Part shown: positions 19,496 to 55,775 of the stretch, piece by piece
How positions within the stretch are numbered: position 1 is the first letter of the stretch
Layout of the letters: every line of letters begins with the position of its first letter
Source of the DNA: Pandoraea faecigallinarum
GTDB lineage: Bacteria > Pseudomonadota > Gammaproteobacteria > Burkholderiales > Burkholderiaceae
Assembly: GCF_001029105.3 (NCBI RefSeq)
Contig: NZ_CP011807.3
Location: 744,001 to 808,000 of the forward strand
DNA: 64,000 nt
Direction of reading: 5' to 3'
Program-made: the position numbers and the translations under genes
The notes under the pieces: model-generated
What the model saw: only the letters and a program-made list of their open reading frames with translations
Told to the model about the DNA's origin: nothing
Database searches by the model: none

Positions 19496-19749
19496 GTTGG
19501 TCTTCCCCAGATCGTCCGTTGGGACGGATATCTGGATAACGGCGCCTGAGGCGCTCGGGTTGAATGATTTTTCGTGTGCCGCATTCGCGCCGGGCAACTG
19601 TTGCCGTGCCCCTGCACCGACGTGTGCTTCACAGAAAGCCGCAGTCGTTCCCGTGACTGCCGCGGCGCGAATTCTCGCATGACGGCAAGCGACTGTGCCG
19701 TCATGCGAATCGCAATATTTCGTACCCGAACCGATCTTGACGCGCGAGA

Positions 19750-40394: not shown

Positions 40395-42064
40395 GGTTGT
40401 CTCCGAATCTTGTGAATCTTGTAATGGTTGGGGGCTGCTTTCGCTGATGTCGCTGTTGTGACTACACCGCCAGGGCCACTTCCGCCCGCGCCTCCTTGCT
40501 GCCGCGGATTTCCTGCGTGCCCGGCGCTTGCTTCCTGTCTTCGAGAATCATGTCCGCCGCCTTCTCCGCGATCATGATGGTCGGTGCATTCGTGTTACCC
40601 GAGACCAGCTCGGGCATGATCGACGCGTCCACGACCCGCAGCGCCGAGAGACCGTGAACGCGCAGACGGTCGTCCACGACCGCCATGCTGTCGCTGCCCA
40701 TCTTGCAGGTGCCTGCCGGGTGATAGATCGATTGGCTGAACTGGCGCGCGGCCTGAAGCAGTTCGTCGTCGCTCCGGTACTGCGCGCCGGGAACGAACTC
40801 GCTGATGATGTGTGGTGCGAGCGAAGGCGCGGCCGCAATGCGGCGCGCGACCTTGATGCCGTCGATCACCACGCGATGATCGCGTTCGTCCGACAGATAG
40901 TTCGCGTGAATCGCCGGGTATTGCAGCGGATCGTTGGAACGAATCTCGACGCTGCCCCGGCTATGGGGGCGCAACTGGCAGACGGACGACGTGAAGGCGG
41001 AGAAGCGATGCGCGCCTTTGCCCGGCTTGTCGGCCGACAACGGCTGCATGTGGAACTGGATGTCGGGACGCGCGAGTTCGGGACGCGAGCGCGTGAAAAT
41101 CGTCACCTGGCTGGCGGCGAGAGTGAGCGGACCGGTGCGCAACAGCGCGTATTGCAAGCCGATGAGCGCTTTGCGCAGCGGATGGTTTACCTCGTCGTTC
41201 AGCGTGCGTTCGCGGGTCTTGAAAACGAGGCGTACCTGCAGGTGATCCTGCAGGTTCCGGCCGACGCCGGGCAACGCGTGACGCAATGCAACGCCGGCTT
41301 TGGCGAGCACCGTGGTCGGGCCGACGCCCGAGTTCTGCAACAGTTGCGGCGAACCGATGGCCCCGGCCGCGAGAATCACTTCGACGCGCGCTCGCGCCTT
41401 CCTGCGCTGACCGTCCTGCAAATATTCGACGCCCACGGCGCGCTTGCCTTCGAAGAGCACACGGCAGGTCTGGGCGCGCGTCTCGACGATCAGATTGGGG
41501 CGGCGCCGCGCGGGCTTGAGAAAACCCTTGGCTGTGCTCCAGCGAAAGCCCTTGAAGGCCGTCTGCTGGAAATAAGCGACGCCTTCCTGCGTGGCGCCGT
41601 TGTAATCCTCGTTGAAGGGAATGCCGATGTCCTTCGCGGCGGCGATGAAGTGTTCCGCAATCGGGCGGCGCAGACGCAGGTCCGAGACCTTCAGCGGGCC
41701 GCCCACGCCGTGATACTCGTTCGCGCCATGTTCCTGATCTTCCGATTTGCGGAAGTAGGGCAGCACGTCGGCATAACGCCAGCCGCGATTGCCCAGCGCG
41801 GCCCAGCGATCGTAGTCCTCGCGCTGCCCCCGCACGTAGAGCAGGCCGTTCAGCGAACTACTGCCGCCGAGCACTTTGCCGCGCGGCCAGTCGATCCGGC
41901 GGTCCGCCACGTTGGGGTCGGCCTCGGTGCGGTAACACCAGTCCAGTTCCGGGTCGTGCATGGTCTTGAAGTAGCCGACCGGGATGTGAATCCAGGGATT
42001 GCTATCGGGGCCGCCGGCTTCGAGCAGCAGCACCCGGTTCGCGGGATCTGCGCTAAGAGCCGGT

Positions 42065-42541
42065 TTACGATCTCCTGAGCAGCAGTGCCAAAAAGGCGAG
42101 ATGGACAAACTGCAAGCTGGTGTTGAGCAAACGCTCACAGTTCTTCCATAAGCGCCGGTTCTTCTCCAGCCAGGCGAAACTGCGCTCGACGACCCAACGC
42201 TGCGGCAGGACCTTGAAAGTATGCAGTTCGCTGCGTTTGGCGATCTGCACCGTGACCCGCTCGCCCAAGATCTCGCGCACGCCCTGCGCGAAGGGTTCGC
42301 CCACGTAACCGCCATCGACCAGCACACTTTGCACCTGTCCCAAGCGAGGCTTGCCGTGCTCGAACGCCAGCAACGCTCCTTTGCGATCGGTCACCTCGGC
42401 AGTGGTTACCGCCACGGCGTGCGGCAAGCCCTGCGTGTCTACGGCAATATGACGCTTGATGCCCGACACCTTCTTGCCCGCGTCATAACCCTTATGCGCT
42501 GCCGTGTCAGTGTTCTTCACGCTCTGCGCGTCCACGATCAA
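42065..42541 (-). CDS. IS5-family transposase, catalytic part (OrfB)
   Basis: The DDE catalytic half of the transposase, 158 residues from a TTG at 42541. It has IVDAQSVKNTDTA (first Asp), VQSVLVDGGYVGEPF (second Asp) and RWVVERSFAWLEKNRRL (Glu with the YREK-like arginine/lysine spacing). It is probably not translated alone: the frame continues upstream of the TTG (V-G-A-A-R-T-R-Q-G-R-S-A-S-T-T-F), matching full-length IS5 transposases, and joins OrfA by a +1 shift at a run of six A on the coding strand (42599-42594). Confidence 0.9.
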   Translation of the reverse strand: MIVDAQSVKNTDTAAHKGYDAGKKVSGIKRHIAVDTQGLPHAVAVTTAEVTDRKGALLAFEHGKPRLGQVQSVLVDGGYVGEPFAQGVREILGERVTVQIAKRSELHTFKVLPQRWVVERSFAWLEKNRRLWKNCERLLNTSLQFVHLAFLALLLRRS

Positions 42542-42863
42542 GAACGTCGTGCTGGCGCTGCGTCCCTGTCTTGTGCGCGCCGCGCCAACCTGATTTTTTG
42601 AGTGCCTGCTCCAGCACGCTCACGCCGTGCTGGTCAGGCTGACTCCATTTGCTGAAATACGCGTAGACGGTTTGCCACTTGGGAAACTCGCTGGGCAAGA
42701 AGCGCCATTGGCAACCTGTACGCAACAGATACAGCACCGCGCAAAACACCTCGTACAAGTCCACCGTCGTGGGCTTCGTGCGCCGGCGCACGCTGCGCAA
42801 CAGCGGCTCGATCTCCGAGAACTTCTCTCGGCTTATGTCACTCGCGTATTTCTTTCTCGTCAT
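42507..42863 (-). CDS. IS5-family transposase, N-terminal part (OrfA)
   Basis: N-terminal half of the transposase, 118 residues from the ATG at 42863: MTRKKYASDISREKFSEIEPLLRSVRRRTKPTTVDL, then the DUF4096-type region VFCAVLYLLRTGCQWRFLPSEFPKWQTVYAYFSKWSQ. Homology to intact transposases ends at EQALKK, just at the A-run where the catalytic frame takes over; the last 25 residues are out-of-frame. The ORF overlaps OrfB by 35 bp. A longer reading back to 42944 crosses the IS end and is not real. Confidence 0.88.
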   Translation of the reverse strand: MTRKKYASDISREKFSEIEPLLRSVRRRTKPTTVDLYEVFCAVLYLLRTGCQWRFLPSEFPKWQTVYAYFSKWSQPDQHGVSVLEQALKKSGWRGAHKTGTQRQHDVLDRGRAEREEH

Positions 42864-43302
42864 CCTCGAATTATCAGGGATGACCAGAAGATCGCAAACA
42901 CGTTCTAAGACGATTCGCGAGTACGCATCCTGCCGAGCCCGCACCGACGATCAGATAGTCGACCTCATGTTCCATACCGCCTGTCTCCTGCATGGGAATG
43001 TCTCATCGCCATGGCGCGGCCATTGCCGCGCGAGGGGATGAAACGATTCGTTTCGGTTTGTTTCGATCCAATGTCGGCGAGCGATGGACAATTGCCAAGC
43101 GAAAAAATGCCGATGACGGGAAACTGAAACGGATTTCGCGCTTGCTGTCTCAGAACGAGGCAATTGCTGCGGCGCATCTGCGGGGTTTTACTAAGGCTGT
43201 CGCCGTGTGGGGCGACGCGTGCGGCGGGAGAGGCGGGAGAGGCGGCCACGGACTTCAACCCGGTCACGGGGTAATCCCGAGGCTGATGGCTGTCGAATAA
43301 TT

Positions 43303-43317
43303 GGTATATTTTGTTTC
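43303..43317. promoter_or_regulatory. IclR-type box upstream of the IclR gene at 43365
   Basis: GGTATATTTTGTTTC matches the boxes GGAACGAATTGTTTC (45206-45220) and GGTACGTTTTGTATT (51852-51866) in the pattern GG-W-A-Y-N5-GT-W-T-Y. It lies 48 bp before the start codon. The rest of the 389-bp gap 42976-43364 holds a few GGCGGGAGA repeats but no gene. Confidence 0.45.
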
Positions 43318-43364
43318 TTTTATTGATCGACGGAATTCGGGGCGAGCGACCCAGGGAGGTATCG

Positions 43365-44252
43365 ATGCAGGCAACGCGCGACTCCGGCGCGCTGGACGAC
43401 GGCGATCTGCGTGCGAGCGAGGCGGCGCGCAATCTGCGCGCGCTCGCCGTCATCGAACGTCTGGCCATGGCCGGACAGCCGTACACCCTGTCGCAGTTGG
43501 CGTCGCGTCTCGCGATCCCGAAGGCCACGCTCATGCGGTTGATCGAGGCGCTGGAAGTGTGCGGCTACGTCTCGCACGTGCCCGATTCGCGCGGCTCGGA
43601 ACGCGGGCTGTCGCTCGGCCCACGAGCGGCGCGGCTCGCGCTCGTCACGCTGGCAAACAACAACTTCACGCGCGCGGCGCGCTCACTCCTGCGCACGCTG
43701 GTCGAGCGGGTCGGCGAAACGGTGAATCTCACCGCGCTCGATGGCGACGAGGTTCTCTACATCGAGCGCGTGGAGACGAACGAACCGCTGCGCATGCAGA
43801 TGCACCCGGGCATGCGCGTGCCCTTGCATTGCACGGCGAGCGGCAAGTTGTTCCTGTCGCAGATGCCGGCGGCCGAGCGCCGTGCGGTGCTCTCGCGCCT
43901 GACGCTCAAACGCATGACGCCCAGGACGATCACCGATCCCGGCCTGCTGGAAGCCGAACTGGATCGCCTCGCCGGGCGCGGCATCGGCATCGACAATGAG
44001 GAGTTCGTGCGGGGCATGGTGGCCGTGGGCGTGCCTGTGCGGGCGCCCGACGACGGCCATGTCCGTGCCGTGCTGGCCGTGCACGGCCCGACGGCGCGCG
44101 TGACGCTGGAGCAATTGACGGGACTGGTGCCGACGCTGCGCGACACCGCGATGGCGCTCGCTCCGCTGCTCGACTGGCAGCGCGCGGGCAAGGCGCAGGC
44201 ATTGGCGAAAAAGGCGGAGGAAGAAAGCGCAGAGAGGGCGAAGGCCCTCTGA
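43365..44252 (+). CDS. IclR family transcriptional regulator
   Basis: A 295-residue IclR regulator. The winged helix spans about residues 20-85 (ALAVIERLAMAGQPYTLSQLASRLAIPKATLMRLIEALEVCGYV). The effector domain has RVPLHCTASGKLFLSQMPAAERRAVL, IDNEEFVRGMVAVGVPV and the final strand RAVLAVHGPTARVTLEQL. The ATG at 43365 is preceded by AGGGAGGT; the upstream in-frame start at 43311 is poorer. It is convergent with, and clearly paralogous to, the IclR gene that ends 4 bp after it. The two share the same operator-like motif upstream. Its target is not known. Confidence 0.92.
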   Translation: MQATRDSGALDDGDLRASEAARNLRALAVIERLAMAGQPYTLSQLASRLAIPKATLMRLIEALEVCGYVSHVPDSRGSERGLSLGPRAARLALVTLANNNFTRAARSLLRTLVERVGETVNLTALDGDEVLYIERVETNEPLRMQMHPGMRVPLHCTASGKLFLSQMPAAERRAVLSRLTLKRMTPRTITDPGLLEAELDRLAGRGIGIDNEEFVRGMVAVGVPVRAPDDGHVRAVLAVHGPTARVTLEQLTGLVPTLRDTAMALAPLLDWQRAGKAQALAKKAEEESAERAKAL

Positions 44253-44256
44253 CGCT

Positions 44257-45045
44257 TCAGAACGTCTTCGCGAGTTCCTTGGCGGCTTCCTGAAGACGCG
44301 GCACGAAGTCCATCGCCTTCGATAGCGAGGTGCGCGACACTGGCGCGTGCACTGCCACGGCGGCGATACACGCGCCGTCTTCCTTGAGCACGGGCGCCGC
44401 CACGCAGGCGATGCCCAGCACGAATTCCTCGTTATCGACGGCAATGCCCTTGCGCGCGATGCGATCGAGTTCGCTCTCCAGTAATTCGGGGTCGGTCAGC
44501 GTGTTGGGCGTGAAACGTTGCAGTTTCATGGCGCGCAGCAGCGCGGCGCGTTGCTCGCGCGGCATCATTGCAAGTAGCAGCTTGCCGCTCGCACTGCTGT
44601 GCGCGGGCACGTGCGAGCCGGGCTTCAGATCGAGACGAAGCGGCCACGGCGCTTCCATGCGGTCGAGATAAAGCACCTCGGTTTCATGCAGCATCGTCAG
44701 GTTGCACGTCTCGCCGAGATCGGCCACGAGACGGCCCAGAATCGCGTGACGCATACGGCGCGCACCGGCCTGCATCATCACGCCCAGACTCAGTTGCGCC
44801 AGACGCGGCCCGATCACGTAAGCATTCTTCTGACCCGGCTCGCGAATCACCAGTCCGCCCGCTTCGAGCGAACCGAGCATGCGGTGCAGCGACGCCTTGG
44901 GCATCTGGATGTCATGCGCCATATCGGCGAGCGAGACGGGCGCGTCGGCAGCCACGAGATATTCCAGCAGCGCGAATGCCCGAAGGGTCGGGGTATCCGC
45001 CTTGCTGTCCTGCGGGGAGTCGTGGCCAATCGCTACGTCGTTCAT
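44257..45045 (-). CDS. IclR family regulator, candidate regulator of xsc
   Basis: A 262-residue IclR regulator: winged helix FALLEYLVAADAPVSLADMAHDIQMPKASLHRMLGSLEAGGL, then the ligand domain with HVPAHSSASGKLLLAMMPREQRAALL and AVDNEEFVLGIACVAAPVLKEDGACIAAVAVHAP. The ATG at 45045 has GGAA 10 bases upstream; the frame runs back to 45111. Its promoter (TTGACG-N17-TAGATT with a conserved upstream box) is almost identical to that of xsc, which strongly suggests that one factor, probably this protein, controls both. IclR regulators of sulfoacetaldehyde-producing pathways are known (IseR for isethionate). It is divergent from cobS. Confidence 0.92.
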   Translation of the reverse strand: MNDVAIGHDSPQDSKADTPTLRAFALLEYLVAADAPVSLADMAHDIQMPKASLHRMLGSLEAGGLVIREPGQKNAYVIGPRLAQLSLGVMMQAGARRMRHAILGRLVADLGETCNLTMLHETEVLYLDRMEAPWPLRLDLKPGSHVPAHSSASGKLLLAMMPREQRAALLRAMKLQRFTPNTLTDPELLESELDRIARKGIAVDNEEFVLGIACVAAPVLKEDGACIAAVAVHAPVSRTSLSKAMDFVPRLQEAAKELAKTF

Positions 45046-45158
45046 ATGCGCCGTTCCGGAAAATGGATCAGCGGTATTGTACCCAAACAGGTTGTCGACC
45101 GGCATTGACAAGGTTCCGATACATGGAAGTTCGTTGCGATTCGGTTTCAGTTCGTTCG

Positions 45159-45220
45159 AATCTAGACGAGCTATCGGGGATCGTCAATCGGTGTTTTAAT
45201 TATCCGGAACGAATTGTTTC
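45159..45220 (-). promoter_or_regulatory. Promoter and operator of the IclR gene, twin of the xsc promoter
   Basis: On the minus strand: -35 TTGACG (45187-45182), 17-base spacer, -10 TAGATT (45164-45159). Upstream of the -35 lies ATAATTAAAACACC, then the box GGAACGAATTGTTTC (45206-45220 on the plus strand). Each element has a counterpart at the same spacing before xsc. The region also lies before the divergent cobS gene and may control it. Confidence 0.75.
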
Positions 45221-45281
45221 TAAAAATGGTTAACGCTATGATGCACCGACACCGTTTTTGGAAAGGGATGGAGACGCCGTG

Positions 45282-46268
45282 ATGGAGACCGCAACCCAAC
45301 AACCGGATCGCACTGTCGATGCCCGCGCCGTGTTCGGTATCGAGACCGATCTTCAGGTGCCGGCGTTCAGCGAGCGCGACGACCATGTGCCCGAGATCGA
45401 CACGGCGTACCGCTTCAATCCCGACGTGACGCTGGCGATTCTGGCCGGATTCATGAACAACCGCCGCGTGATGGTGCAGGGCATGCACGGCACAGGCAAA
45501 TCGACGCACATCGAGCAGGTGGCGGCGCGTTTGAACTGGCCCTGCGTGCGCGTGAATCTCGACGGGCACATCAGCCGTCTCGATCTCGTGGGTAAGGACG
45601 CCATTGTCGTGCGCGACGGCCATCAGGTCACCGAATTCCAGGAGGGCATCGTGCCGTGGGCGCTGCAACGCCCCGTGGCGCTGATCTTCGACGAGTACGA
45701 TGCCGGCCGTCCCGACGTGATGTTCGTGATTCAGCGCATTCTGGAGCGCGACGGCAAATTCACGCTGCTCGACCAGAACCGCGTGATCCATCCGCATCCC
45801 GGCTTCCGGATGTTCGCCACGACGAACACCGTCGGTCTCGGCAACCTGAACGGTCTGTATCACGGCACGCAGGTGCTCAACCACGCGCAGATCGACCGCT
45901 GGAACGTGGTGGCCACGCTCGACTATCTCTCGCGCGAAGACGAAGCGGGCATCGTGCTCGCACGCGTGCCGGCACTCGACAACGACGCGGGACGCGCGCT
46001 CGTCGGCTCGATGGTCAGTGTGGCCGAACTCACCCGCAAGGGCTTCGCGACGGGCGACCTGTCCACGCTCATGTCGCCGCGCACGGTCATCAACTGGGCG
46101 GAGAACGCCGGCATCTTCCACGATGCGGGGCTGGCCTTCCGGCTCACGTTCCTGAACAAGTGCGACGAAGCGGAGCGCCCGGTTGTGGCGGAGTACTACC
46201 AGCGGGCCTTCGGCCGCGAGTTGCCGTTGACGGACGGCGGCCGCTCGCTGCTGGCCGGTGCGTCATGA
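45282..46268 (+). CDS. cobS: CobS-type AAA+ ATPase (cobaltochelatase subunit)
   Basis: A 328-residue AAA+ ATPase. Walker A is GMHGTGKST (67-75), Walker B is LIFDEYD (134-140), and sensor and finger regions include [20 protein letters not shown] and [13 protein letters not shown]. Length and sequence match CobS, the motor of the aerobic CobNST cobaltochelatase that inserts Co2+ into hydrogenobyrinate diamide, a MoxR/MgChl-I relative. The ATG at 45282 follows GGAGAC; the frame starts at a TTG at 45258. Its stop overlaps the start of cobT (ATGA). No cobN or other cobalamin gene is near; the setting is taurine catabolism. Confidence 0.87.
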
Positions 46269-48016
46269 CGCGAGGGTCGATCTCCGAGCGCGAGGCGGCA
46301 CAACGCGCCGCGCGCGGCGAAGCGCTGTGCGCCGCGACCGTGCGCGCCCTGACCGGAGACGCTGCCCTGCACTACAGCGGCGCACGTCTGTGCAGGAACA
46401 TGCGGCCATTGCCCCTGCACGCGCCGCATCTGCAAACCCTGCCTCCCCCTGCCGACCCGCTGATGACCATGCGCGGCGCTGCCGACGGCGCGGCCCTTCG
46501 GCTTCGCCACAGCGACGCCGCGTTGCATCGCACGCTGCAACCGGACGCGTCGCTGGAGCGCCTGCTTTTCGAACTGCTGGAGCAACTGCGCTGCGAGACC
46601 TTCATTCCGCCGGGCATGCCCGGCATCGAGGCTAACCTGCGCGACCGTTTCGAAACGTGGTCGCGTGCGATGCACGCCACGGGGGTGGCCGAGAGTCACG
46701 TCGGCCTGCTGCTCTACACCGTGGCGCAGATGAGCTGGTCGCGGCTCACCGGCCATCCGGTCGTCGAGGACACGGAAGGGCTGATCGAAGCCACGCGCAT
46801 GGCCATCGCACCCCGCATTGGCGGGGCGCTCGCCGGCATGCGCCGCACGCGCACCGATCAGGCGGCGTTCGCCGCCTTCGCGCGCGAATTGGCCGCCGAT
46901 ATCGCGGCACTGATTCGTGCGGCGGGCGGTGACGCGCAGGAAGACAATGCGAAGGACGACGAGGACGCCGGGGGCGTGCGCAACGCGTTCTCGCTGTTTC
47001 TCGACTTCGATGAGCAGGAAGACGACGGGATCACGCTGGCGCATTCGGGCGACAGCCGCGTGCTCAAGGCGTCCGGACAGGGTTACCGTGTCTTCACGAA
47101 TCGTTACGACCGCGAACTGTATGCGGGCACGCTGGTGCGGCGGGCGTTGCTTACCGAATTTCGCGAGCGGCTCGACGAACGGATCGTCGCGCAGGCGATC
47201 AACGTTGCCCGACTCGCGCGTGCGCTCAAGGCGGCGCTGGCCGTGCCGCAGCGCGACGGCTGGTCGTTCGGCGAGGAACAGGGGCGCATCGATGGGCGAC
47301 GTCTCGCGCAACTGGTCAGTTCGCCCGCGGAGCGGCGGCTTTTCCGCTTGGAAAAGCACACATTGCTTGCCGAGTCGATGGTGAGTTTCCTCATCGACTG
47401 TTCCGGCTCGATGAAGGCGCAGATCGATGCGGTCGCGATGATCGTCGACGTGCTTTCCCGCGCGCTCGACGCCGCCGGTGTGACCAACGAGATCCTCGGA
47501 TTCACGACCGGCGCGTGGAATGGCGGGCGGGCACGCGCGGACTGGCTCGCGCGCGGCAAACCGCGCTTTCCTGGCCGTCTGAACGAAGTCTCGCATCTGA
47601 TCTTCAAGGACGCCGTCACCAGCTGGCGACGCGCGCGCACCGACATCGCGTCGCTGTTCAAGGCGGATCTGTTTCGCGAAGGGGTGGACGGCGAGGCGCT
47701 CGAATGGGCGTGCGAGCGTTTGCGCTCGCGCAGCGCGAACCGTCGTGTGCTGATCGTGATTTCGGACGGCAGCCCGATGGACGCCGCCACCAACCAGGTC
47801 AACGACGAGCACTATCTCGACCATCATCTGCGCGAAGTCGTGGCGCAGCAGCAGGCCCGGGGCGACGTGGAAGTGCTGGGTCTCGGCGTCGGCCTGGACC
47901 TCAGTCCCTACTACCGCAACTCGCTGGCGCTGGATCTCACGTCGTTGCCGGACATGACAATGCTGGCGAAGCTCGCCGACTGGATCGGCAGTGGCGGGCG
48001 TCGCGGCAACGCCTGA
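46265..48016 (+). CDS. cobT: CobT-type VWA protein (cobaltochelatase subunit)
   Basis: A 583-residue protein of the CobT/MgChl-D type. An N-terminal helical region is followed by an acidic linker ([15 protein letters not shown], about 223-237) and a C-terminal von Willebrand A domain with the MIDAS motif DCSGSM (378-383), [12 protein letters not shown] and [12 protein letters not shown]. With CobS it forms the ring complex that powers metal insertion by CobN. The ATG overlaps the cobS stop, so the two are translationally coupled. It is somewhat shorter than classical CobT. It converges on tauE with a 13-bp gap. Without cobN nearby, a role in another metal-enzyme maturation cannot be excluded. 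Confidence 0.87.
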
Positions 48017-48029
48017 CCTCGGCGCCGCA

Positions 48030-48797
48030 TCACAGCATCGCTGTCAACGCGTCGATCGTCAGATGCGCGCCGAGCAGAATCAACGTGACAAACGCGAGCC
48101 GCCGCGTTGTGGTCCCCGATAGCGGCGGCGGGTGACGACGCGCGAACAAGGTGGCGAACGTCACGACGGGCAGCGCGATGGCGGCCTGCCACCACATCGA
48201 CGCGGGCAATTGCCCCGCCAGCGCGCTATAAGCCGTGCGGATCGAGGCGGTTACCGCGAACAGCAGAATCAGCGCGCAGCGAATCTGCACGAGCGTGAGC
48301 GGCTGCCGGTAAAAGTAGAAGATCAGCGGCGGCCCGGAGATTCCGAACATGCCGCTCAGAAGGCCGCCGAAGATGCCACTGAAGAAGAAGCCCGCGTCGC
48401 CCGCGCGCTCGGTCCGGGGCGCAGGCCGGATCGCCGAACCGATGCCGCCGTAAAGCACGACAGCCCCCAGCAGCAAATGCAGAATGTTGGACGCCGTGCC
48501 ATTCAGGTAATCGAACAGCAGCACGCCGGCGACGACCGACGGCACAATGCCCAGTGTCGCCGCGCGCACGGCGCGCCAGTCGATCAGATGCCACGTGCCC
48601 GGCAGGGCGAGCGCGCTGTTGATGAGCGTGACCAGACTCACCAGAATGGCGACACTTGCAACCGGCGCCAGCCCGAACCCGCTTGCCCCGCCCAGCACGA
48701 TCATCCCCAGGCCGAAGCCGGTGACCGTCTGGAAATACGTCGCAAACCCGAGCAACAGCATCAACGGCAGCGACGCCTGAACCGCTTGCCACGTCAT
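48030..48797 (-). CDS. tauE: TauE/SafE family sulfite exporter
   Basis: A 255-residue inner-membrane protein with about eight helices, of the TauE/SafE (DUF81) family. It has the repeated GFGLGMIVLGGASGF and FFSGIFGGLLSGMFGISGPPLIFYFY motifs. Family members next to xsc export the sulfite released from sulfoacetaldehyde, protecting the cell. The ATG at 48797 overlaps the pta stop (ATGA), so it is coupled to pta; the frame that extends to 48899 is spurious. Other TauE/SafE proteins carry organic anions, but the xsc-pta-tauE order makes sulfite the best reading. Confidence 0.88.
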   Translation of the reverse strand: MTWQAVQASLPLMLLLGFATYFQTVTGFGLGMIVLGGASGFGLAPVASVAILVSLVTLINSALALPGTWHLIDWRAVRAATLGIVPSVVAGVLLFDYLNGTASNILHLLLGAVVLYGGIGSAIRPAPRTERAGDAGFFFSGIFGGLLSGMFGISGPPLIFYFYRQPLTLVQIRCALILLFAVTASIRTAYSALAGQLPASMWWQAAIALPVVTFATLFARRHPPPLSGTTTRRLAFVTLILLGAHLTIDALTAML

Positions 48798-49834
48798 ACC
48801 CGGAGGGCGAGCGGCGAGGTTCCGGTCAGCTTGGCGCGCGCGGCCTGTGCCTGCACGCAGGTCACGCCGATCACGTAATAGATGTCGTCGGCGCTGCATC
48901 CGCGCGAGAGGTCGTTTGCGGGACGATTCAGGCCCTGCAACAGCGGACCGATGGCCTTCGCACCGCCGATGCGCTCCGCGAGCTTGTAGCCGATGTTGCC
49001 CGCGTCGAGACTCGGAAAGATCAGCGTGTTGGCGTGTCCCTCGGTTTGCGAATGCACGACCTTGCGTTGCGCGATTTCCTCGACGATGGCCGCATCGAGT
49101 TGCACGTCGCCGTCGATGGCGAGTTGCGGACGCGCCTGCTTGACCAGATGCGTCGCCGCCACCACCTTGTCGACTGCGGCATGCTTCGCGCTGCCGCTCG
49201 TCGAGAAGGAAAGCATCGCTACGCGCGGCGGTTCCATGAGCAGGGCGCTCGCGCTATCGGCCGCCGCCAGTGCGATCTGCGCGAGTTGCTCCGCATCCGG
49301 ATCCACGACGAGCGCGCAGTCCGAGAAGATGAGCCCGCCCTTCATCGTGTGAAAAGGTTCGCAGAGCATCATCAGGAAAAAGCTCGACACGAGCTTGAAC
49401 GACGGTTGCACGCCGATGATCTGAATCGCCATGCGCACGACGTCGGCCGTCGTGTTGACCGCGCCCGCGACGGAGCCGTCGGCGTGACCGAGGCGCACCA
49501 TCATGTTCGCGAACCCCAGCGGCGAGCGCATTGCTTCGGCGGCCTGATTCCGCGTCATCCCCTTTTTCGAACGGATGCCATACCAGATGTGCGAGAACGC
49601 TTCGGTCATGTCCGACGTTGCCGGATCGATCAGTTCCATGCCGGCGAGATCGATACGCGCGGCGCCGGCGGCGCGTTGCGTTCTGGCGATGTCGCCGACG
49701 AGCACGATGCGTGCAATGCCCTCGCGCGTGGCGCGTGCCGCCGCGGTGAGCACGCGCTCGTCCTCCGACTCGCACAACACGATGCGCATCGGTGCGCGGC
49801 GCGCGGTATCGATGATGCGGTTAATGGCTTTCAT
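48794..49834 (-). CDS. pta: Phosphate acetyltransferase of the taurine pathway
   Basis: A 346-residue phosphotransacetylase (PTA_PTB family) that converts acetyl phosphate from Xsc to acetyl-CoA. Typical segments are IVLCESEDERVLTAAARA, PLGFANMMVRLGHADGSVAGAVNTTADVVRMAIQIIG, MLSFSTSGSAKH and NTLIFPSLDAGNIGYKLAERIGGAKAIGPLLQGLNRPANDLSRG. It is the short, single-domain type without the N-terminal DRTGG region. It follows xsc by 77 bp, but an intrinsic terminator fills the gap and ends 8 bases before the ATG, and no Shine-Dalgarno is seen. Expression is probably by partial readthrough. Confidence 0.94.
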   Translation of the reverse strand: MKAINRIIDTARRAPMRIVLCESEDERVLTAAARATREGIARIVLVGDIARTQRAAGAARIDLAGMELIDPATSDMTEAFSHIWYGIRSKKGMTRNQAAEAMRSPLGFANMMVRLGHADGSVAGAVNTTADVVRMAIQIIGVQPSFKLVSSFFLMMLCEPFHTMKGGLIFSDCALVVDPDAEQLAQIALAAADSASALLMEPPRVAMLSFSTSGSAKHAAVDKVVAATHLVKQARPQLAIDGDVQLDAAIVEEIAQRKVVHSQTEGHANTLIFPSLDAGNIGYKLAERIGGAKAIGPLLQGLNRPANDLSRGCSADDIYYVIGVTCVQAQAARAKLTGTSPLALRV

Positions 49835-49841
49835 GATGTCG

Positions 49842-49887
49842 AAAAAATAAAAAAAGCGCCCCCGGCACCCACAGAGCCGGGAGCGCT
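49842..49887 (-). terminator. Intrinsic terminator between xsc and pta
   Basis: On the minus strand, AGCGCTCCCGGC (49887-49876), a 9-base loop and GCCGGGGGCGCT (49866-49855) form a stem with one 2-base mismatch, followed by TTTTTTTATTTTTT. This is a classic Rho-independent terminator placed inside an apparent operon, so xsc should be expressed in excess over pta and tauE. Confidence 0.88.
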
Positions 49888-49911
49888 GTCACACGAAAAA
49901 CCGCTACCGCG

Positions 49912-51744
49912 TCAGACGTAGTCCTTGTACTTGTCGAGCATGCGCACCGGCTTGGAGAGCGCGTCGCGGCGGAACGGATCGCCCAGTTCGCGAGTACACA
50001 TGATTTCGATGATGGTCGTCTTGCCGTGATTCATCTGAAGATCGATGGCCTTCCTGAGCGCCGGGCCGACATCTTCCAGACGATCGACCACGATACCTTC
50101 TGCGCCCATCGCGCGGGCGATGTTGGCGAAGCTCGGGCTTTCCAGCTCACCGGCGACGAAACGGCGGTTGTAGAAGTCCACCTGGTTCTTTTTCTCCGCG
50201 CCCCACTGACGGTTGTGGAAGACCACGGCCGTGACCGGAATGTTGTGACGCACACACGTGAGCGTTTCCATCAGGCTCATGCCCCACGCGCCGTCGCCGG
50301 CGTATGAGATCGCCGGACGGTGCGGTGCGGCGACCTTGGCGCCGATGATCGTCGGGAACGCATAACCGCAGTTACCCCAGCTCATTGCCGCGAAGAAGCT
50401 GCGCGGCTTGTTGAAGCGCAGATAGCTGTTGGCGACCGAGTTGATGTTGCCGATGTCGGTCGAGACCATGACGTCTTCCGGCATCGCTTTCTCCAACTCG
50501 CGCAGCACCTGACGCGGATGCAGATAGTGGCCGCCGTTGAAGGTCTTCTCGTGCTTCTGCTCTTCGATCATGTCGAGGCTGTACGGATCGCGCTCGTGGG
50601 TCCACTCGTCGAGTTCCTTCTCCCACGCCGCCTTCTCGGTCGCGATCTGATCGGCGCGGGCGGCGCGCGTGGCGTCGCACGCGAGCGTACGCCCGGCCAG
50701 ACGTTGCGATAGCGCGACGGCCGCGGCCTTGGCGTCGCCGCAGATACCGACCGAAATCTTCTTCACGAGACCGAGCATCTTGTGATCGGCGTCGATCTGG
50801 ATGATCTTGGCGTTCTTCGGCCAGTAGTCCAGACCGTGTTGCGGCAGTGTGCCGAACGGTCCGAGGCGCGAGCCGAGCGCGACGACCACGTCGGCCTGGG
50901 CGAGCAGCTTCATGGCCGCCTTCGAGCCTTGATAGCCGAGCGGGCCGCACCACAGCGGATGGTTGGCCGGGAACGAATCGTTGTGCAGATAGCTGTTGAC
51001 GACCGGCGCGCCAAGACGTTCGGCGAGTGCCTTGCACTCCTCGATGGCGTCGGCCATGACCACGCCGCCGCCGGAGATGATGACCGGGAACCTGGCCTGT
51101 GCGAGCAGTTCCGCCGCTTCGTTCAGACGCTCTTCGCCGCCGGCGCCACGGTCCAGGCGTTGCGGACGCGGGATTTCGGTCTTGATCTGACCGTAGAAGT
51201 AGTCACGCGGAATGTTGAGCTGCGTCGGACCCATTTCGGCCATCGCGCGATCGAAGCAGCGGCCGGTGAATTCGGCCATGCGCGCCGGATGCGTCACGTG
51301 GCCCTGATATTTCGTGAACTCCTGGAACATCGGCAGTTGCTTCGCCTCCTGGAAACCGCCCAGCCCGATGCCCATCGTGCCCGCTTCCGGCGTGACGATC
51401 ACGACCGGGCTGTGCGCCCAGTAAGCCGCGGCGATGGCGGTGACACAGTTGCTGATGCCCGGACCGTTCTGGCCGATCACCACACCGTGGCGACCCGACA
51501 CGCGGGCATAACCGTCGGCCATGTGACCGGCGCCCTGTTCGTGTACCACCGGAATCAGACGAATGCCGGCCGGCGCGAAGATGTCCATTGCATCCATGAA
51601 GGCCGAGCCCATGATGCCGAACATTTCGCTCACGCCGTTGGCGACCATCGTTTCGACGAACGCTTCCGAAGGCGTCATCGTTTGCGGACCGGCATCGGAA
51701 GCCGTCATTTGCTGGGTGGCCGTAGCCGGATCTTTGGCATTCAT
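49912..51744 (-). CDS. xsc: Sulfoacetaldehyde acetyltransferase
   Basis: Key enzyme of C2-sulfonate dissimilation: sulfoacetaldehyde plus phosphate gives acetyl phosphate and sulfite, with ThDP and Mg2+. The 610-residue protein has an acidic ThDP-activating residue in PVVHEQGAGHMADGYARVSG, the ThDP signature SYAGDGAWGMSLMET...FHNRQWG, and Xsc-specific stretches such as PQLNIPRDYFYGQI and SWGNCGYAFPTIIGAKVAAP. The first 20 residues are a variable tail. The ATG at 51744 follows GGAGACACC. It has its own promoter, closely like that of the IclR gene at 44257-45045, so induction by taurine or a derived signal is likely. Confidence 0.96.
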   Translation of the reverse strand: MNAKDPATATQQMTASDAGPQTMTPSEAFVETMVANGVSEMFGIMGSAFMDAMDIFAPAGIRLIPVVHEQGAGHMADGYARVSGRHGVVIGQNGPGISNCVTAIAAAYWAHSPVVIVTPEAGTMGIGLGGFQEAKQLPMFQEFTKYQGHVTHPARMAEFTGRCFDRAMAEMGPTQLNIPRDYFYGQIKTEIPRPQRLDRGAGGEERLNEAAELLAQARFPVIISGGGVVMADAIEECKALAERLGAPVVNSYLHNDSFPANHPLWCGPLGYQGSKAAMKLLAQADVVVALGSRLGPFGTLPQHGLDYWPKNAKIIQIDADHKMLGLVKKISVGICGDAKAAAVALSQRLAGRTLACDATRAARADQIATEKAAWEKELDEWTHERDPYSLDMIEEQKHEKTFNGGHYLHPRQVLRELEKAMPEDVMVSTDIGNINSVANSYLRFNKPRSFFAAMSWGNCGYAFPTIIGAKVAAPHRPAISYAGDGAWGMSLMETLTCVRHNIPVTAVVFHNRQWGAEKKNQVDFYNRRFVAGELESPSFANIARAMGAEGIVVDRLEDVGPALRKAIDLQMNHGKTTIIEIMCTRELGDPFRRDALSKPVRMLDKYKDYV

Positions 51745-51783
51745 GGGTGTCTCCAGTGAAAAATAAACGGAACAAATAATTCC

Positions 51784-51866
51784 GATTTCGTTTGCTTGTA
51801 TCGAAATCTAGGGGATTAAATTGCCTTGGTCAATTGGTGTTTTTATTATTTGGTACGTTTTGTATT
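51784..51866 (-). promoter_or_regulatory. xsc promoter and operator
   Basis: On the minus strand: -35 TTGACC (51833-51828), 17-base spacer, -10 TAGATT (51810-51805). Upstream, ATAATAAAAACACC and the box GGTACGTTTTGTATT (plus strand 51852-51866) match the IclR gene promoter. A dyad GATTTCG-N11-CGAAATC (51784-51808) overlaps the -10 and start site and could be a repressor site. Confidence 0.75.
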
Positions 51867-51978
51867 GAAAAATACAAACATCGCATCCCCCATGCCCGAC
51901 ATACGGCGGGCCGCCGGCGTCCAGAAAAAATGCCCCGGCAAGCGGGGCGGGCAATCCGGGCGTGCCAGGGCGGGGGCG

Positions 51979-52368
51979 TCAGAACGCCGGGCGGTCCTTG
52001 CGGAATGCGTTCTTCACTTCGATCTTGCCGTCGCGCAGGGTGAAGACGTCGACCATGCGCGCTTCGACGCGCGTGCCGTCCGCCTTCGTGCCGCGGAACG
52101 TCGATTCCGAGACGCCGCGATCGCCCGCGACGAAGTGTTCGCCTTCCGTCCACGATGCATCGGGGAAGGTCTCCCACGCGGACTGGAACGCGGCGCGCAC
52201 GGCTTCGCGGCCTTCGAAGGTGCGCCCCAGCATGTCGGGCCCGGCGACCGCGTGGAAAACGCACGTGTCGGTCATGCAGGCCATGAGGGCGTCGATGTCG
52301 TGCCGGTTCCAGGCGTCGTTGAATGTCGTGAGCAGACGGATGGCGGCGGAGTCGTTTTGAGTCGTCAT
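51979..52368 (-). CDS. tauX: SnoaL/NTF2-like protein, probable taurine dehydrogenase small subunit
   Basis: A 129-residue protein with the cone-shaped SnoaL/NTF2 fold: LLTTFNDAWNRHDIDALMACMTDTCVFHAV, GREAVRAAFQSAWETFPDA, and ARMVDVFTLRDGKIEVKNAFRKDRPAF. It follows the DAO-family flavoprotein gene by 32 bp and precedes xsc. The small subunit TauX of taurine dehydrogenase is, to my knowledge, a protein of this kind beside the flavoprotein TauY, so TauX is the best call; a stand-alone SnoaL enzyme is the alternative. The long frame extending to 52710 is spurious; the ATG at 52368 fits. Confidence 0.6.
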   Translation of the reverse strand: MTTQNDSAAIRLLTTFNDAWNRHDIDALMACMTDTCVFHAVAGPDMLGRTFEGREAVRAAFQSAWETFPDASWTEGEHFVAGDRGVSESTFRGTKADGTRVEARMVDVFTLRDGKIEVKNAFRKDRPAF

Positions 52369-52400
52369 TGCAAATTCCGGAGTTCGAGGAAGGACCGATA

Positions 52401-53831
52401 TCAACGCGCTTCGTCCTGCGCGTGGTATCGCTGATAGAGAAAGCGCTGGCCGATGCGACGGAACGGCGCGAAGCCTTCCCATTGCACGGTGCCGAACACG
52501 TTCGGGTATTGCAGCGCCGAGTCGTAGATCGGCAGTGTCCACGACGGATCGCGCTTGCCGGCGATGCGCTGGGCGAGACGGCGTCCGGCGTGCGCGGAGA
52601 ACGACACGCCGTTGCCGCCGTACCCCATGGCATAAAAGAGGCTCTGGCGTGGATCGGGCTGCGTCACGCGCGGCATCATGTCGTGGCTGACGTCGACCCA
52701 GCCCCACCACGAGTACTCGATGCGAATGCCTTTGAGTGCGGGGAACTTGCGATGCAGGCCTTCGACGAGCACCGCCATGTGTTTCGGGTTCTGCGCATCG
52801 GCGCCGGTAATCGAGCTGCGGCTGCCGATCTGCAAGCGGTTATCCGGCAGCAGCCGATAGTAGTAACGCAGCGTGCGCGTGTCGGTAATGACTTCATGCG
52901 TGCGGAAGTTCGTCGCTGCAATTTCTTCCGGCGTGAGAACACGGGTGACGAGCGAGTTCGACAGAATCGGCATGATCTTCGAACGTAGCGCTTTGGTCAC
53001 GTCGTTGCGAGTGTAGCCGCCCGTGGCGAACGCGACCGCCTTGGCACGCACCACGCCGCGCGGCGTGCGTACGTGATGCACGCCGTTGATCGTCTCCACC
53101 CCGAGCACCGGTGTCGAAGGGTGCACACGGGCGCCGAGCGCGCGCGCCATGCGCAGATAGCCGAAGGCGAGTTTGAGCGGATGCACGCCGATGCCGTCCG
53201 GCTCGTGCAGGGCGCCGCAGTTCTCCTGATCGTCGACGTATTGCTCGCTGACTTCCTCGCGCGAGAGGATGCGGGTGTCGTAGCCGAAGACCTCGCGCAT
53301 CACCTTCGCCTCGTTGCGCAGAAATTCCATCTTGCGCGCACGATGGGCGATGTAGAGATGCCCGCCCGGTTGCGGATCGCACTCGGGCACTTCGGCGATG
53401 AGCGATTTGAACGTGTTGAAGCCTTCGCGGATTTCGGCGTCCAGACGCAGCGCGGTTTCCTTGCCCCAGCGCTCGATCCATTGCGAGCGGTAAAGGCGTC
53501 CGCTCGCATTCTGTCCCTGACCGCCATTGCGGCTGGTGCAGCCCCAGCAGGTCTGGTTGGCTTCGAGCACGGTGGCGCGAATGCCATGCTCGCGAGCGAG
53601 GAAAAGGGCGGTGGACAGACCGGTGAAGCCCGCGCCGACGATGACCACGTCGACATCGGCATCGCCGGCGAGCGGACCGTCGTCCTCGGGCGGCTCCCCC
53701 GCGGTGGCAACCCAATAAGTGGGCGCGTAGTCCATGCCGAGACCGGGGCCGGACGAGACTAACGGATCGTAAAGCGGATCGTATGGGGATGCGCAGCGAC
53801 GATCCAGCGCGAAGGATTCAATCGTACCCAC
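52401..53831 (-). CDS. tauY: FAD-dependent DAO-family oxidase, probable taurine dehydrogenase large subunit
   Basis: A 476-residue flavoprotein of the D-amino acid oxidase/glycine oxidase superfamily. It has VDVVIVGAGFTGLSTALFLAREHG (dinucleotide motif, about 50-73), CTSRNGGQGQNASGR, a substrate domain and the C-terminal YAMGYGGNGVSFSAHAGRRLAQ. Related proteins include PuuB and TauY; between a SnoaL-like partner and xsc, oxidation of taurine to sulfoacetaldehyde is the best fit. The GTG at 53831 is preceded by AGGAGCCTAAC. The frame stays open far upstream to 55790, but that part is antisense to the symporter gene and not real. Confidence 0.68.
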   Translation of the reverse strand: MGTIESFALDRRCASPYDPLYDPLVSSGPGLGMDYAPTYWVATAGEPPEDDGPLAGDADVDVVIVGAGFTGLSTALFLAREHGIRATVLEANQTCWGCTSRNGGQGQNASGRLYRSQWIERWGKETALRLDAEIREGFNTFKSLIAEVPECDPQPGGHLYIAHRARKMEFLRNEAKVMREVFGYDTRILSREEVSEQYVDDQENCGALHEPDGIGVHPLKLAFGYLRMARALGARVHPSTPVLGVETINGVHHVRTPRGVVRAKAVAFATGGYTRNDVTKALRSKIMPILSNSLVTRVLTPEEIAATNFRTHEVITDTRTLRYYYRLLPDNRLQIGSRSSITGADAQNPKHMAVLVEGLHRKFPALKGIRIEYSWWGWVDVSHDMMPRVTQPDPRQSLFYAMGYGGNGVSFSAHAGRRLAQRIAGKRDPSWTLPIYDSALQYPNVFGTVQWEGFAPFRRIGQRFLYQRYHAQDEAR

Positions 53832-53906
53832 GTTAGGCTCCTGACGAAAATGAGCCAATACTGCCAAGAACATTTTTCCCGGATTAGTACCACCGCGAAC
53901 TTGTGA

Positions 53907-53972
53907 TGGTGCCAGCGCGAAGCGGCGCGTGCGCGGCGTTTCCGGACTTGGGGGAGTCGCTGCCTGGCACCA
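53907..53972. repeat. Inverted repeat in a divergent promoter region
   Basis: TGGTGCCAG (53907-53915) and CTGGCACCA (53964-53972) are exact complements 48 bases apart in the 270-bp region between tauY and the symporter operon. They could be paired half-sites for DNA looping or a large stem. No clear -24/-12 promoter is formed. Otherwise the gap shows only promoter-like AT patches. Confidence 0.5.
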
Positions 53973-54101
53973 AACTTTTGTGCGATGTGGCTCTAAACGG
54001 CGCGATTTTTGGCTGGGGATACTGGGCCAGACAGCGGGCCTCTGGCTGCCATCCGGCGGTGCGGTCCATGCGAACAATGCGTCGCGAAGCGGAGACAGAA
54101 C

Positions 54102-54302
54102 ATGTTCAGATTGCTGATTGGCCTCGGATTGCCGTATCTCGGCGTTGTGGGATTGCTGCCGTGGGCGGCGTCCGTGGAGCGGTATGTGCTCGGCGTGCCG
54201 TTCATCTACGGCTGGATCTTCCTGTGGTTCGTGCTCACGTCGGCCTGCCTCTGGCTGTGCTGGACGCTCTTCGACCGGCACATCGTCGAAGACCCGGCGT
54301 GA
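54102..54302 (+). CDS. DUF3311 small membrane protein
   Basis: A 66-residue inner-membrane protein with two transmembrane helices: LLIGLGLPYLGVVGLLPWAASV and VPFIYGWIFLWFVLTSACLWLCWTLFD. DUF3311 proteins are encoded directly before SSS-family sodium/solute symporters, as here (54 bp gap), and are thought to be accessory to them. The ATG at 54102 follows GGAGACAGAAC; the frame from 54009 is longer but unsupported. First gene of the DUF3311-symporter-amidohydrolase-GTPase operon. Confidence 0.9.
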   Translation: MFRLLIGLGLPYLGVVGLLPWAASVERYVLGVPFIYGWIFLWFVLTSACLWLCWTLFDRHIVEDPA

Positions 54303-54356
54303 TCGCGCTGGCGATCGTTCCTTCACGAACCCCCACGAATTCCGGAGATTGCGTCG

Positions 54357-55775
54357 ATGGCAACCCTCATATTTGCCGGCTTCATCCTGTTGTCGGTCTA
54401 TCTCGCCTTGCGTGCGCGCGGTGGGCGCGGCCCGCAAAGCGTGCATGATTTCTTCGTCGCTTCGCGTCAGTTCGGCGCGTGGCTCGTGTTCTTTCTCGCG
54501 GCCGGCGAGATCTACAGCATCGGCACGATGGTCGGCTTTCCGGGCGGTATCTATGCCAAGGGGCCGACGTACGGCGTATGGTTCCTCGGTTACATCCTGC
54601 TGGCCTATCCCGTGGGCTACTTTCTCGGGCCGAGGATCTGGGATGCCGGCAAGCGCTACAACGCCATCACGCTGCCCGATCTGTTCAAGGGGCACTTCCG
54701 GAGCCGTTTTCTGGAACTGGTCGTCGCGGTGACGGCCATCGTCTTCCTGCTGCCGTGGGGGCAGTTGCAGTTCACCGGCCTGGTCGCGGCGCTCAAGGGG
54801 CTGGGATGGAATTTCCAGCCGCTGTGGCTCATCTGCTTCTCGGCCATGCTGGCCTTCGTCTACATCGCGATTGCCGGGGTGCGCGCATCGGCCTATATCG
54901 CCGTGCTCAAGGACGTGCTGATGGTCGCCGCCATTGTCGTGACCGGTGTGGCCGTGGCATGGGAGGCGGGCGTGACGCCGGTGTTTCAGGCCGCGAGCGA
55001 GCACGTGAGCAACGCCATGAGCACGCAGCAGCTGACCTTCGCGATGACGACCATCGTGTTCCAGTCGCTGGGCATGTACGTGATGCCGTTCGGCGTGCAG
55101 AACTTCTTCACGGCAAAGAGTGCCGCCACGATTCGCCGCACGCAGGTCGCCATGCCGCTGTACATGCTGATGTACCCGTTCCTCGTATTGGCGTCTTACT
55201 ACGCCATCAGCCGGAACATTGAACTGGCGTCGCCCAACGAAGCGTTCTTCGCCGCCGTGACGCAGTTGCTGCCGTCGTGGCTCGTCGGTCTGGTCGCGGC
55301 GGGCGCGGCGCTCTCGGGGCTGCTGGTGCTCGCCGGCATCTGTCTGGCGCTGGGGCCCATCGTCACGCGCAATATCCTCTCGGGCATGCCTGAGCATCGG
55401 CAGAAGGCCAGCTCCAAGGTGGTCATTGTGCTGTATCTGCTGGGTTCCATCGTGCTCACGCTGCTCACACCGAACCTGATGCTCACGCTCATCAACATGG
55501 CTTACTACGGGGTGACGCAGTTCCTGCCCGGTGTGATCGCCGTGGTATTGCGCATGCGCGTGCGTGCGACGGCAGTGGCTGCCGGTGTGCTGGCCGGTCA
55601 GGGCCTTGCGCTCGTGCTTTACTACAAGAACCCGGACCTCGGCGGCGTGAATCTCGGACTGATCTGCCTGGTCGTCAATGTGGCGGTGATGACGGTGCTC
55701 AATGTGCTGCTCGGCGGCCGTCGTGCGCACGCCATGGACCCCGGCGTGGGCGCGCTTTCTCCTTACAAGAAATAA
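54357..55775 (+). CDS. Sodium:solute symporter, SSS family
   Basis: A 472-residue inner-membrane symporter with about 13 helices. The SSS core is present: VHDFFVASRQFGAWLVFFLAAGEIYSIGTMVGFPGGIYAKGP, LGPRIWDAGKRYNAITLPDLFKGHF, VAFVYIAIAGVRAS-like helix 5 and SGLLVLAGICLALGPIVTRNI. It resembles the YidK/PanF/ActP-like group that pairs with DUF3311 proteins. Substrate is probably that of the amidohydrolase whose gene begins 3 bp downstream, perhaps an amide or N-acyl compound; this is an inference from the operon. Confidence 0.9.
   Translation: MATLIFAGFILLSVYLALRARGGRGPQSVHDFFVASRQFGAWLVFFLAAGEIYSIGTMVGFPGGIYAKGPTYGVWFLGYILLAYPVGYFLGPRIWDAGKRYNAITLPDLFKGHFRSRFLELVVAVTAIVFLLPWGQLQFTGLVAALKGLGWNFQPLWLICFSAMLAFVYIAIAGVRASAYIAVLKDVLMVAAIVVTGVAVAWEAGVTPVFQAASEHVSNAMSTQQLTFAMTTIVFQSLGMYVMPFGVQNFFTAKSAATIRRTQVAMPLYMLMYPFLVLASYYAISRNIELASPNEAFFAAVTQLLPSWLVGLVAAGAALSGLLVLAGICLALGPIVTRNILSGMPEHRQKASSKVVIVLYLLGSIVLTLLTPNLMLTLINMAYYGVTQFLPGVIAVVLRMRVRATAVAAGVLAGQGLALVLYYKNPDLGGVNLGLICLVVNVAVMTVLNVLLGGRRAHAMDPGVGALSPYKK

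Follow-up and report, generated by a model that had tools for sequence, protein, structure and literature searches.

The window analysed here is a stretch of 64,000 nucleotides from the genome of Pandoraea faecigallinarum (contig NZ_CP011807.3, positions 744,001 to 808,000). Apart from the xsc-pta-tauE genes, its xsc locus includes two genes for IclR-family regulators, denoted iclR1 and iclR2, and a pair of cobS- and cobT-like genes; the features are listed in Table 1. The iclR2 gene is divergent from cobS and convergent with iclR1. One flank of the locus encodes a choline-dehydrogenase-like GMC protein and an MFS transporter, and the other one encodes an FAD oxidoreductase, a SnoaL-like protein and a sodium-solute symporter, which may be involved in isethionate and taurine use. 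The GMC gene is split by two transposase ORFs (42065-42944, IS5-like by eye), with an N-terminal piece that has an FAD motif at about 42930-42990 and the remainder at about 40462-42030; the gene is unbroken where the alignment reaches the insertion point, for example, in genomes G031, G062, G154 and G207.

IclR2 belongs to the IclR family by both Pfam domains, HTH_IclR (PF09339, 43.2 bits, cut-off 22) and IclR_C (PF01614, 140 bits, cut-off 24), and scores below the cut-off of the NCBIfam models for KdgR, IclR, BhcR (166.2 vs 350) and PcaR/PcaU/PobR. Its probable start codon at 45105 is ATG in 25 of the 26 aligned genomes and GTG in one. The CobS- and CobT-like proteins both fall below the cut-offs of the cobaltochelatase models TIGR01650 and TIGR01651. 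As described for taurine metabolism, Xsc yields acetyl phosphate and sulfite, Pta forms acetyl-CoA, and TauE exports sulfite (PMC5320631).

Table 1. Genes, predicted promoter elements and putative operators of the xsc locus, in window coordinates; the positions -61 and +22 assume a predicted start 7 nt past the -10 hexamer.
Feature	Position	Strand	Remarks
Palindrome GAAACGATTCGTTTC before GMC dehydrogenase gene	43040..43054		Second best PWM score in window
Palindrome GGTATATTTTGTTTC before iclR1	43303..43317	+	Fifth best PWM score in window
iclR1, second IclR-family regulator	43311..44252	+	44% identity to IclR2; true start probably near 43365
iclR2, IclR-family regulator, 282 aa	44257..45105	-	Probable start is ATG at 45105
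iclR2 -10, TAGATT	45159..45164	-	Predicted; TACATT in many relatives
iclR2 -35, TTGACG	45182..45187	-	Predicted; TTGAC 18 nt after operator in 26/26 genomes
iclR2 operator, GAAACAATTCGTTCC	45206..45220	-	Also overlaps predicted cobS -35
cobS -35, TTGTTT	45214..45219	+	Predicted; inside iclR2 operator
cobS -10, TATGAT	45237..45242	+	Predicted
cobS-like AAA+ ATPase gene	45258..46268	+	TIGR01650, 534.6 bits, below cut-off 558.55; start codon uncertain
cobT-like VWA-domain gene	46265..48016	+	CobT_C and CobT Pfam domains; TIGR01651, 316.5 bits, below cut-off 759.05
tauE-like sulfite exporter gene	48030..48812	-	PF01925, 57.7 bits, cut-off 32.6
pta, phosphate acetyltransferase	48794..49834	-	TIGR00651, 356.4 bits, cut-off 311.2
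xsc, sulfoacetaldehyde acetyltransferase	49912..51744	-	TIGR03457, 1084.9 bits, cut-off 676.4
xsc operator O2, GGAATTATTTGTTCC	51769..51783	-	In 5' leader, near +22
xsc -10, TAGATT	51805..51810	-	Predicted
xsc -35, TTGACC	51828..51833	-	Predicted
xsc operator O1, AATACAAAACGTACC	51852..51866	-	Centre near -61 from predicted start

Two similar promoters and their palindromes

The predicted promoters of iclR2 (45159-45220) and xsc (51805-51866), read on the minus strand, are identical in 41 of 62 positions, and the next best 62-nt match in the window reaches 30 of 62. At both promoters, the spacer between the -35 and -10 hexamers is 17 nt, and the gap between the upstream box and the -35 hexamer is 18 nt. 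The first-pass annotation had described these promoters as nearly identical, sharing TTGAC(C/G), 17 bases, TAGATT, an upstream tract and the box. All these elements are indeed found on the minus strand, exactly where it had placed them, and the likeness is real, but the wording is too strong: the box, the A/T tract and the hexamers account for most of the matches, and the 17-nt spacers differ. The exact likeness is, moreover, partly strain-specific, the A/T tract of xsc being AAAAATAC in 25 of 26 genomes and AAAAACAC in this strain only. With up to 3 mismatches, the ACAANNCGTNCCNNATAATNAAAACACCNATTGAC pattern has 2 matches in the window vs 0 in 100 shuffles. The genome-wide motif search that the annotation had proposed yields exactly two sites: at up to 3 mismatches, the core pattern occurs in the whole genome of about 5.73 Mb at iclR2 and xsc only, and the reversed-pattern control gives 0. 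Given the shuffles, the genome-wide count and the score of the next best match, we rejected chance similarity of the two promoters.

Genome alignments indicate that the box, present as annotated, is only part of a 15-bp inverted repeat, about GRWAC-N5-GTWCC. Also overlooked in the annotation were a second putative operator of xsc (O2), a predicted cobS promoter, divergent from that of iclR2 and lying under the iclR2 operator, and two palindromes, one preceding the GMC gene and the other iclR1. O1 and O2 are 83 bp apart in the window and flank the predicted xsc promoter; O2 is the same in 25 of the 26 aligned genomes and differs by one base in the remaining one (G147). The predicted cobS promoter, TTGTWT-17-TATGAT, is present in all 26 Pandoraea genomes. 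The palindrome GAAACGATTCGTTTC is unchanged in 23 of the 25 aligned genomes (one of the 26 was left out), with one central base differing in the other two, and GGTATATTTTGTTTC is unchanged in all 25 (again with one left out); the PWM that found both was built without these two sites.

Single PWM scores are unspecific, such that a site at 50970 within xsc, with 16.9, exceeds O1, with 14.3, and sites at 19712, 59524 and 34943, with 13-14, come close to O1. The argument for the putative operators is, therefore, carried by conservation and pairing. The high-scoring operator-like site in the xsc coding sequence (50970-50984) may be a mere codon effect. The genome contains two copies of the perfect form, GGAAC-N5-GTTCC, both outside the xsc cluster, which is fewer than for the reversed control, so this strict form defines no regulon here. 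We dropped a described RNA element as a candidate after an Rfam scan of 42000-54500 gave no match at the gathering score; O2 could act partly as an RNA hairpin.

Conservation in Pandoraea and in other genera

Both promoters can be aligned in 26 of the 32 genomes of the genus, all 26 with xsc at 97-100%, and the succession of the operator, 18 nt and TTGAC is found in all 52 promoters. Of 23 genomes of the genus, 17, among them that of the window, have two core-pattern sites at a distance of 6.1-6.8 kb; the remaining 6 comprise two with one site, three with none and a 1.2 Mb genome with an unrelated match. The identity of the flanking genes in the 25 other main-clade genomes is 89-95% for gmc and 93-96% for fad. 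Four genomes (G048, G072, G206 and G208) encode a divergent xsc (about 74%; cut by the contig end in G206) with iclR2 (72-74%) divergently adjoining, and two of the 32 (G010 and G200) have no xsc of this type. An orphan iclR2 (91%), with an operator and with unrelated neighbours, is found in G200 (locus L114) and in Pandoraea anhela (L133), apparently on the same contig. In G154 (L065, C1:1908287), the A/T tract and -35 motif recur with 1 mismatch; we rejected this match as a third site, given that no palindrome is apparent by eye and that the gene downstream looks to be of the GntR type.

Beyond the genus, a matrix derived from seven Pandoraea sites was applied to 56 held-out xsc upstream regions from loci L134-L197, excluding the Pandoraea-clade loci L171, L172 and L189 and regions shorter than 200 bases; three loci contribute two xsc copies each. 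A pair was counted when both scores were at least 8 and the spacing was 69-85 bp, a threshold and range chosen after viewing the site data. Such O1/O2 pairs are present in 53 of the 56 regions (52 at 80-85 bp and 1 at 71), which are not independent because the species are related, vs 2 of 2240 dinucleotide shuffles. As for the three misses, L151 has O2 and no O1, and L166 and L183 have the 82-bp spacing with lower scores. Without the spacing limit, and with both scores at least 10, 48 of 65 pairs are spaced by 80-85 bp and 8 by 76-77 bp, the rest being scattered. In the distant Pandoraea clade and in L174, the O1-O2 distance is 71 bp, about one helical turn shorter.

Most of the loci listed for other genera have a gap of 17-19 nt between O1 and the -35 hexamer. 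The predicted xsc promoter of Burkholderia is located about 19 nt farther from O1, directly before O2, and the O1-O2 distance is still 82 bp. Such spacing, with 82 bp here and 71 bp in the distant clade and L174, points to action of both sites on a single face of the helix. Before iclR2, operator pairs are rare (3 of 77; an xsc-type pair is seen in L162 and L163), and in L174, iclR2 shares a divergent region with xsc. A single operator precedes iclR2 in Burkholderia and Caballeronia. Many Paraburkholderia lack a good operator before iclR2, and several Caballeronia lack one before their second iclR2 copy; hence self-regulation does not appear to be general.

The iclR2 searches gave 80 loci, 74 of which have xsc at no more than 10 kb from iclR2; gmc is present in 52, fad in 36, cobS (at least 70%) in 50 and cobT (at least 50%) in 58, with many loci cut at 10 kb or at contig ends. 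In the laboratory strain Paraburkholderia xenovorans LB400, a single locus (L149) combines xsc, pta, tauE, cobT and iclR2. A strong cobS match is present in 33 loci of L134-L197: cobS faces xsc in 7, iclR2 in 25 and neither in 1. When cobS faces xsc, O1 is located between them, and the cobS promoter pattern is found in 5 of the 7 loci; when it faces iclR2, the pattern is found in 0 of 25, in stretches that are short and end at the aligned starts.

For a control, we used 300 genomes from the order. With a limit of E 1e-95, iclR2 is matched only in the window's own genome, and with a limit of 1e-230, xsc is matched in 34 (own included); the control set consists of the 35 xsc places in the other 33. 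A pair with scores of at least 8 is present within 60-95 bp in 4 of the 35 and at 80-85 bp in 2 (L200 and L202), and L207 has a weaker pair at 82 bp. These three loci have IclR homologues (41-45%) and, in the vicinity, matches to cobS and cobT, so the operator reaches somewhat beyond close relatives of iclR2. Conversely, in 19 of the 35 (within L199-L224), an IclR homologue (39-52%) divergently adjoins xsc, mostly without this operator, which makes the link between IclR proteins and xsc wider than the operator itself.

Modes of control and origin of the promoter likeness

Our main reading, to which we assign a probability of about 0.78 on the basis of the sequence comparisons, is that the xsc operon and iclR2 are under common control of IclR2. 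The first-pass proposal of one regulator, along with self-regulation of the IclR gene, appears well supported by the conserved operator, the spacing and the gene linkage, with conserved palindromes at the predicted promoter of iclR2 itself and at those of its putative adjacent targets. Under the scheme that we propose, IclR2 would bind the 15-bp palindrome as a dimer or tetramer and would control xsc-pta-tauE via the O1 and O2 sites flanking the xsc promoter. Given that a single like operator, at the same distance from the -35 hexamer, precedes iclR2 and overlaps the predicted cobS -35, IclR2 would control its own gene and, probably, the divergent cobS-cobT-like operon. The signal would be a pathway metabolite, most likely, sulfoacetaldehyde, a guess prompted by its being the shared intermediate.

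The sign of this control is less clear-cut. The annotation had predicted an activator, and the position of O1 near -61 does fit activation, whereas O2, past the predicted start, fits repression or looping; the activator and repressor readings are about equal in probability. IclR2 could be mainly an activator, with an O1 dimer contacting RNA polymerase at xsc and iclR2, and with O2 only tuning xsc, a reading whose chances we rate as somewhat below even. The gap between O1 and the -35 hexamer, fixed in Pandoraea and nearly so in most other loci, and the presence before iclR2 of an O1 without a full O2 argue for activation, as does the case of SauR from Cupriavidus necator H16, a sulfonate-responsive regulator that acts in transcription activation (PMC7057948). 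However, of the two palindromes, O2 is usually the better one, and it is located past the predicted start, and the displaced promoter of Burkholderia keeps its O1-O2 distance rather than its distance from O1.

Alternatively, and with odds likewise short of even, IclR2 might be mainly a repressor that bridges O1 and O2, so that the xsc promoter is enclosed in a loop until an inducer releases the protein. Looping would agree with the O1-O2 distance, which stays within 80-85 bp, or is 71, in spite of shifts of the predicted promoter, and the -35 hexamer and 17-nt spacing look good enough to function unaided, although the promoters are predictions and a lone site at -61, such as that of iclR2, is poorly placed to repress.

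A quite unlikely alternative is that the shared boxes are bound not by IclR2 but by its paralogue, IclR1. Because the two proteins are paralogous and like palindromes are found before both iclR1 and the GMC gene, IclR1, which is encoded next to iclR2, could bind some or all of the sites. However, eight Burkholderia loci (L173, L175-L179, L181 and L197) combine iclR2 with paired xsc operators and have no IclR1 match of at least 55% within the locus, the range that the search covered, and the IclR gene next to xsc in the distant Pandoraea clade is iclR2. Less probable still is that the likeness is a mere relic of promoter duplication, with no common control today: the gene order does suggest descent from one xsc promoter, and the likeness is no higher within genomes than between them, but the spacers have diverged, whereas the operator arms, the gap and the hexamers are nearly constant in 26 genomes.

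Under the main reading, the likeness probably arose because cobS and iclR2 were once separated by an xsc copy, the promoter of which now drives iclR2. In Caballeronia (L146, L150 and L168) and Trinickia (L154), xsc is located between cobS and iclR2, and the order in L146 and L150, that is, xsc-pta-tauE, cobT-cobS, second xsc, iclR2, iclR1, gmc and mfs, is the Pandoraea order plus one xsc. From this gene order, we infer that a lost or moved xsc was the source of the iclR2 promoter in Pandoraea. The duplicate xsc genes are identical in 1775 of 1776 positions in L146 (1326-3101 and 8003-9778) and in 1806 of 1824 positions in L150 (1412-3235 and 8000-9823), and the identity ends about 130-200 bp upstream, which suggests recent duplication or conversion. 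In most Pandoraea, a GGA half site is found 82-83 bp from the iclR2 operator, and in the others it is at 94-104 bp or missing; this could be nothing more than the ribosome-binding site. Gene conversion between the two promoters was rejected, with 13.27 of 18 matches within genomes vs 13.13 of 18 between genomes, a value reached in 986 of 5000 permutations; for the operator alone, there are 9.85 matches both within and between genomes.

As for the CobS/CobT-like pair, we tentatively suggest, as a possibility that we consider to be rather less than even, that it belongs to a sulfoacetaldehyde regulon through the same operator and functions in maturation or repair of Xsc or another sulfonate enzyme, not in cobalamin synthesis.

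Known regulators and implications for sulfonate use

In the comparative study of the IclR family by Suvorova and Gelfand (2021, PMC8222616), members of the family usually control their own gene and adjacent operons, similarly to the arrangement predicted here, and KdgR, IclR, PcaU and PobR (Table 1 of that study) are likewise catabolic regulators. The group 2 operator consensus in that study, TGRAACA-N1-2-TGTTYCA, has inverted-repeat arms GRAAC/GTTYC like those of the present palindrome. However, the centre between GRAAC and GTTCC is N5 here, 1-2 bp longer, so that our operators depart from the consensus; the KdgR box has the same GAAAC/GTTTC arms, but N3 apart. The putative sites around the xsc promoter are also about 82 bp apart, compared with 18-22 nt for the tandem sites in PMC8222616. 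The terms 'sulfo' and 'taurine' are absent from the main text of that study, where TauABC appears only among co-occurring transporter COGs. SauR, by its description, is sulfonate-responsive, as IclR2 would be, and responds to sulfoacetate (PMC7057948). Among the matches listed in a search of open-licence full texts, we found no published account of the regulator discussed here.

The annotation had cast the IclR protein as a replacement for the TauR of alphaproteobacteria. TauR is a MocR-type regulator from a different protein family, its box consists of direct repeats CTGGACYTAA, and xsc, pta and tauE are among the members of its predicted regulons in alphaproteobacteria, those of betaproteobacteria being mostly similar in content (PMC5320631). 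The replacement claim is thus imprecise, given that TauR regulons are predicted also in beta- and gammaproteobacteria in the same study. In the window, CTGGACYTAA with up to 1 mismatch has 4 matches vs 3.66 expected, none of them at the xsc promoter; on the window sequence, TauR control was accordingly dropped, the boxes being no more frequent than by chance.

Xsc is the entry point of taurine carbon into central metabolism, and carbon from isethionate and sulfoacetate likewise enters through Xsc. For this enzyme in Burkholderiaceae, the present analysis provides a candidate regulator, exact predicted operators and a spacing rule, IclR2 being a solid prediction of a known kind of regulator. 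In this case, the role given elsewhere to TauR appears to fall to an IclR-type protein, and a CobST-like pair would be tied to sulfonate metabolism.
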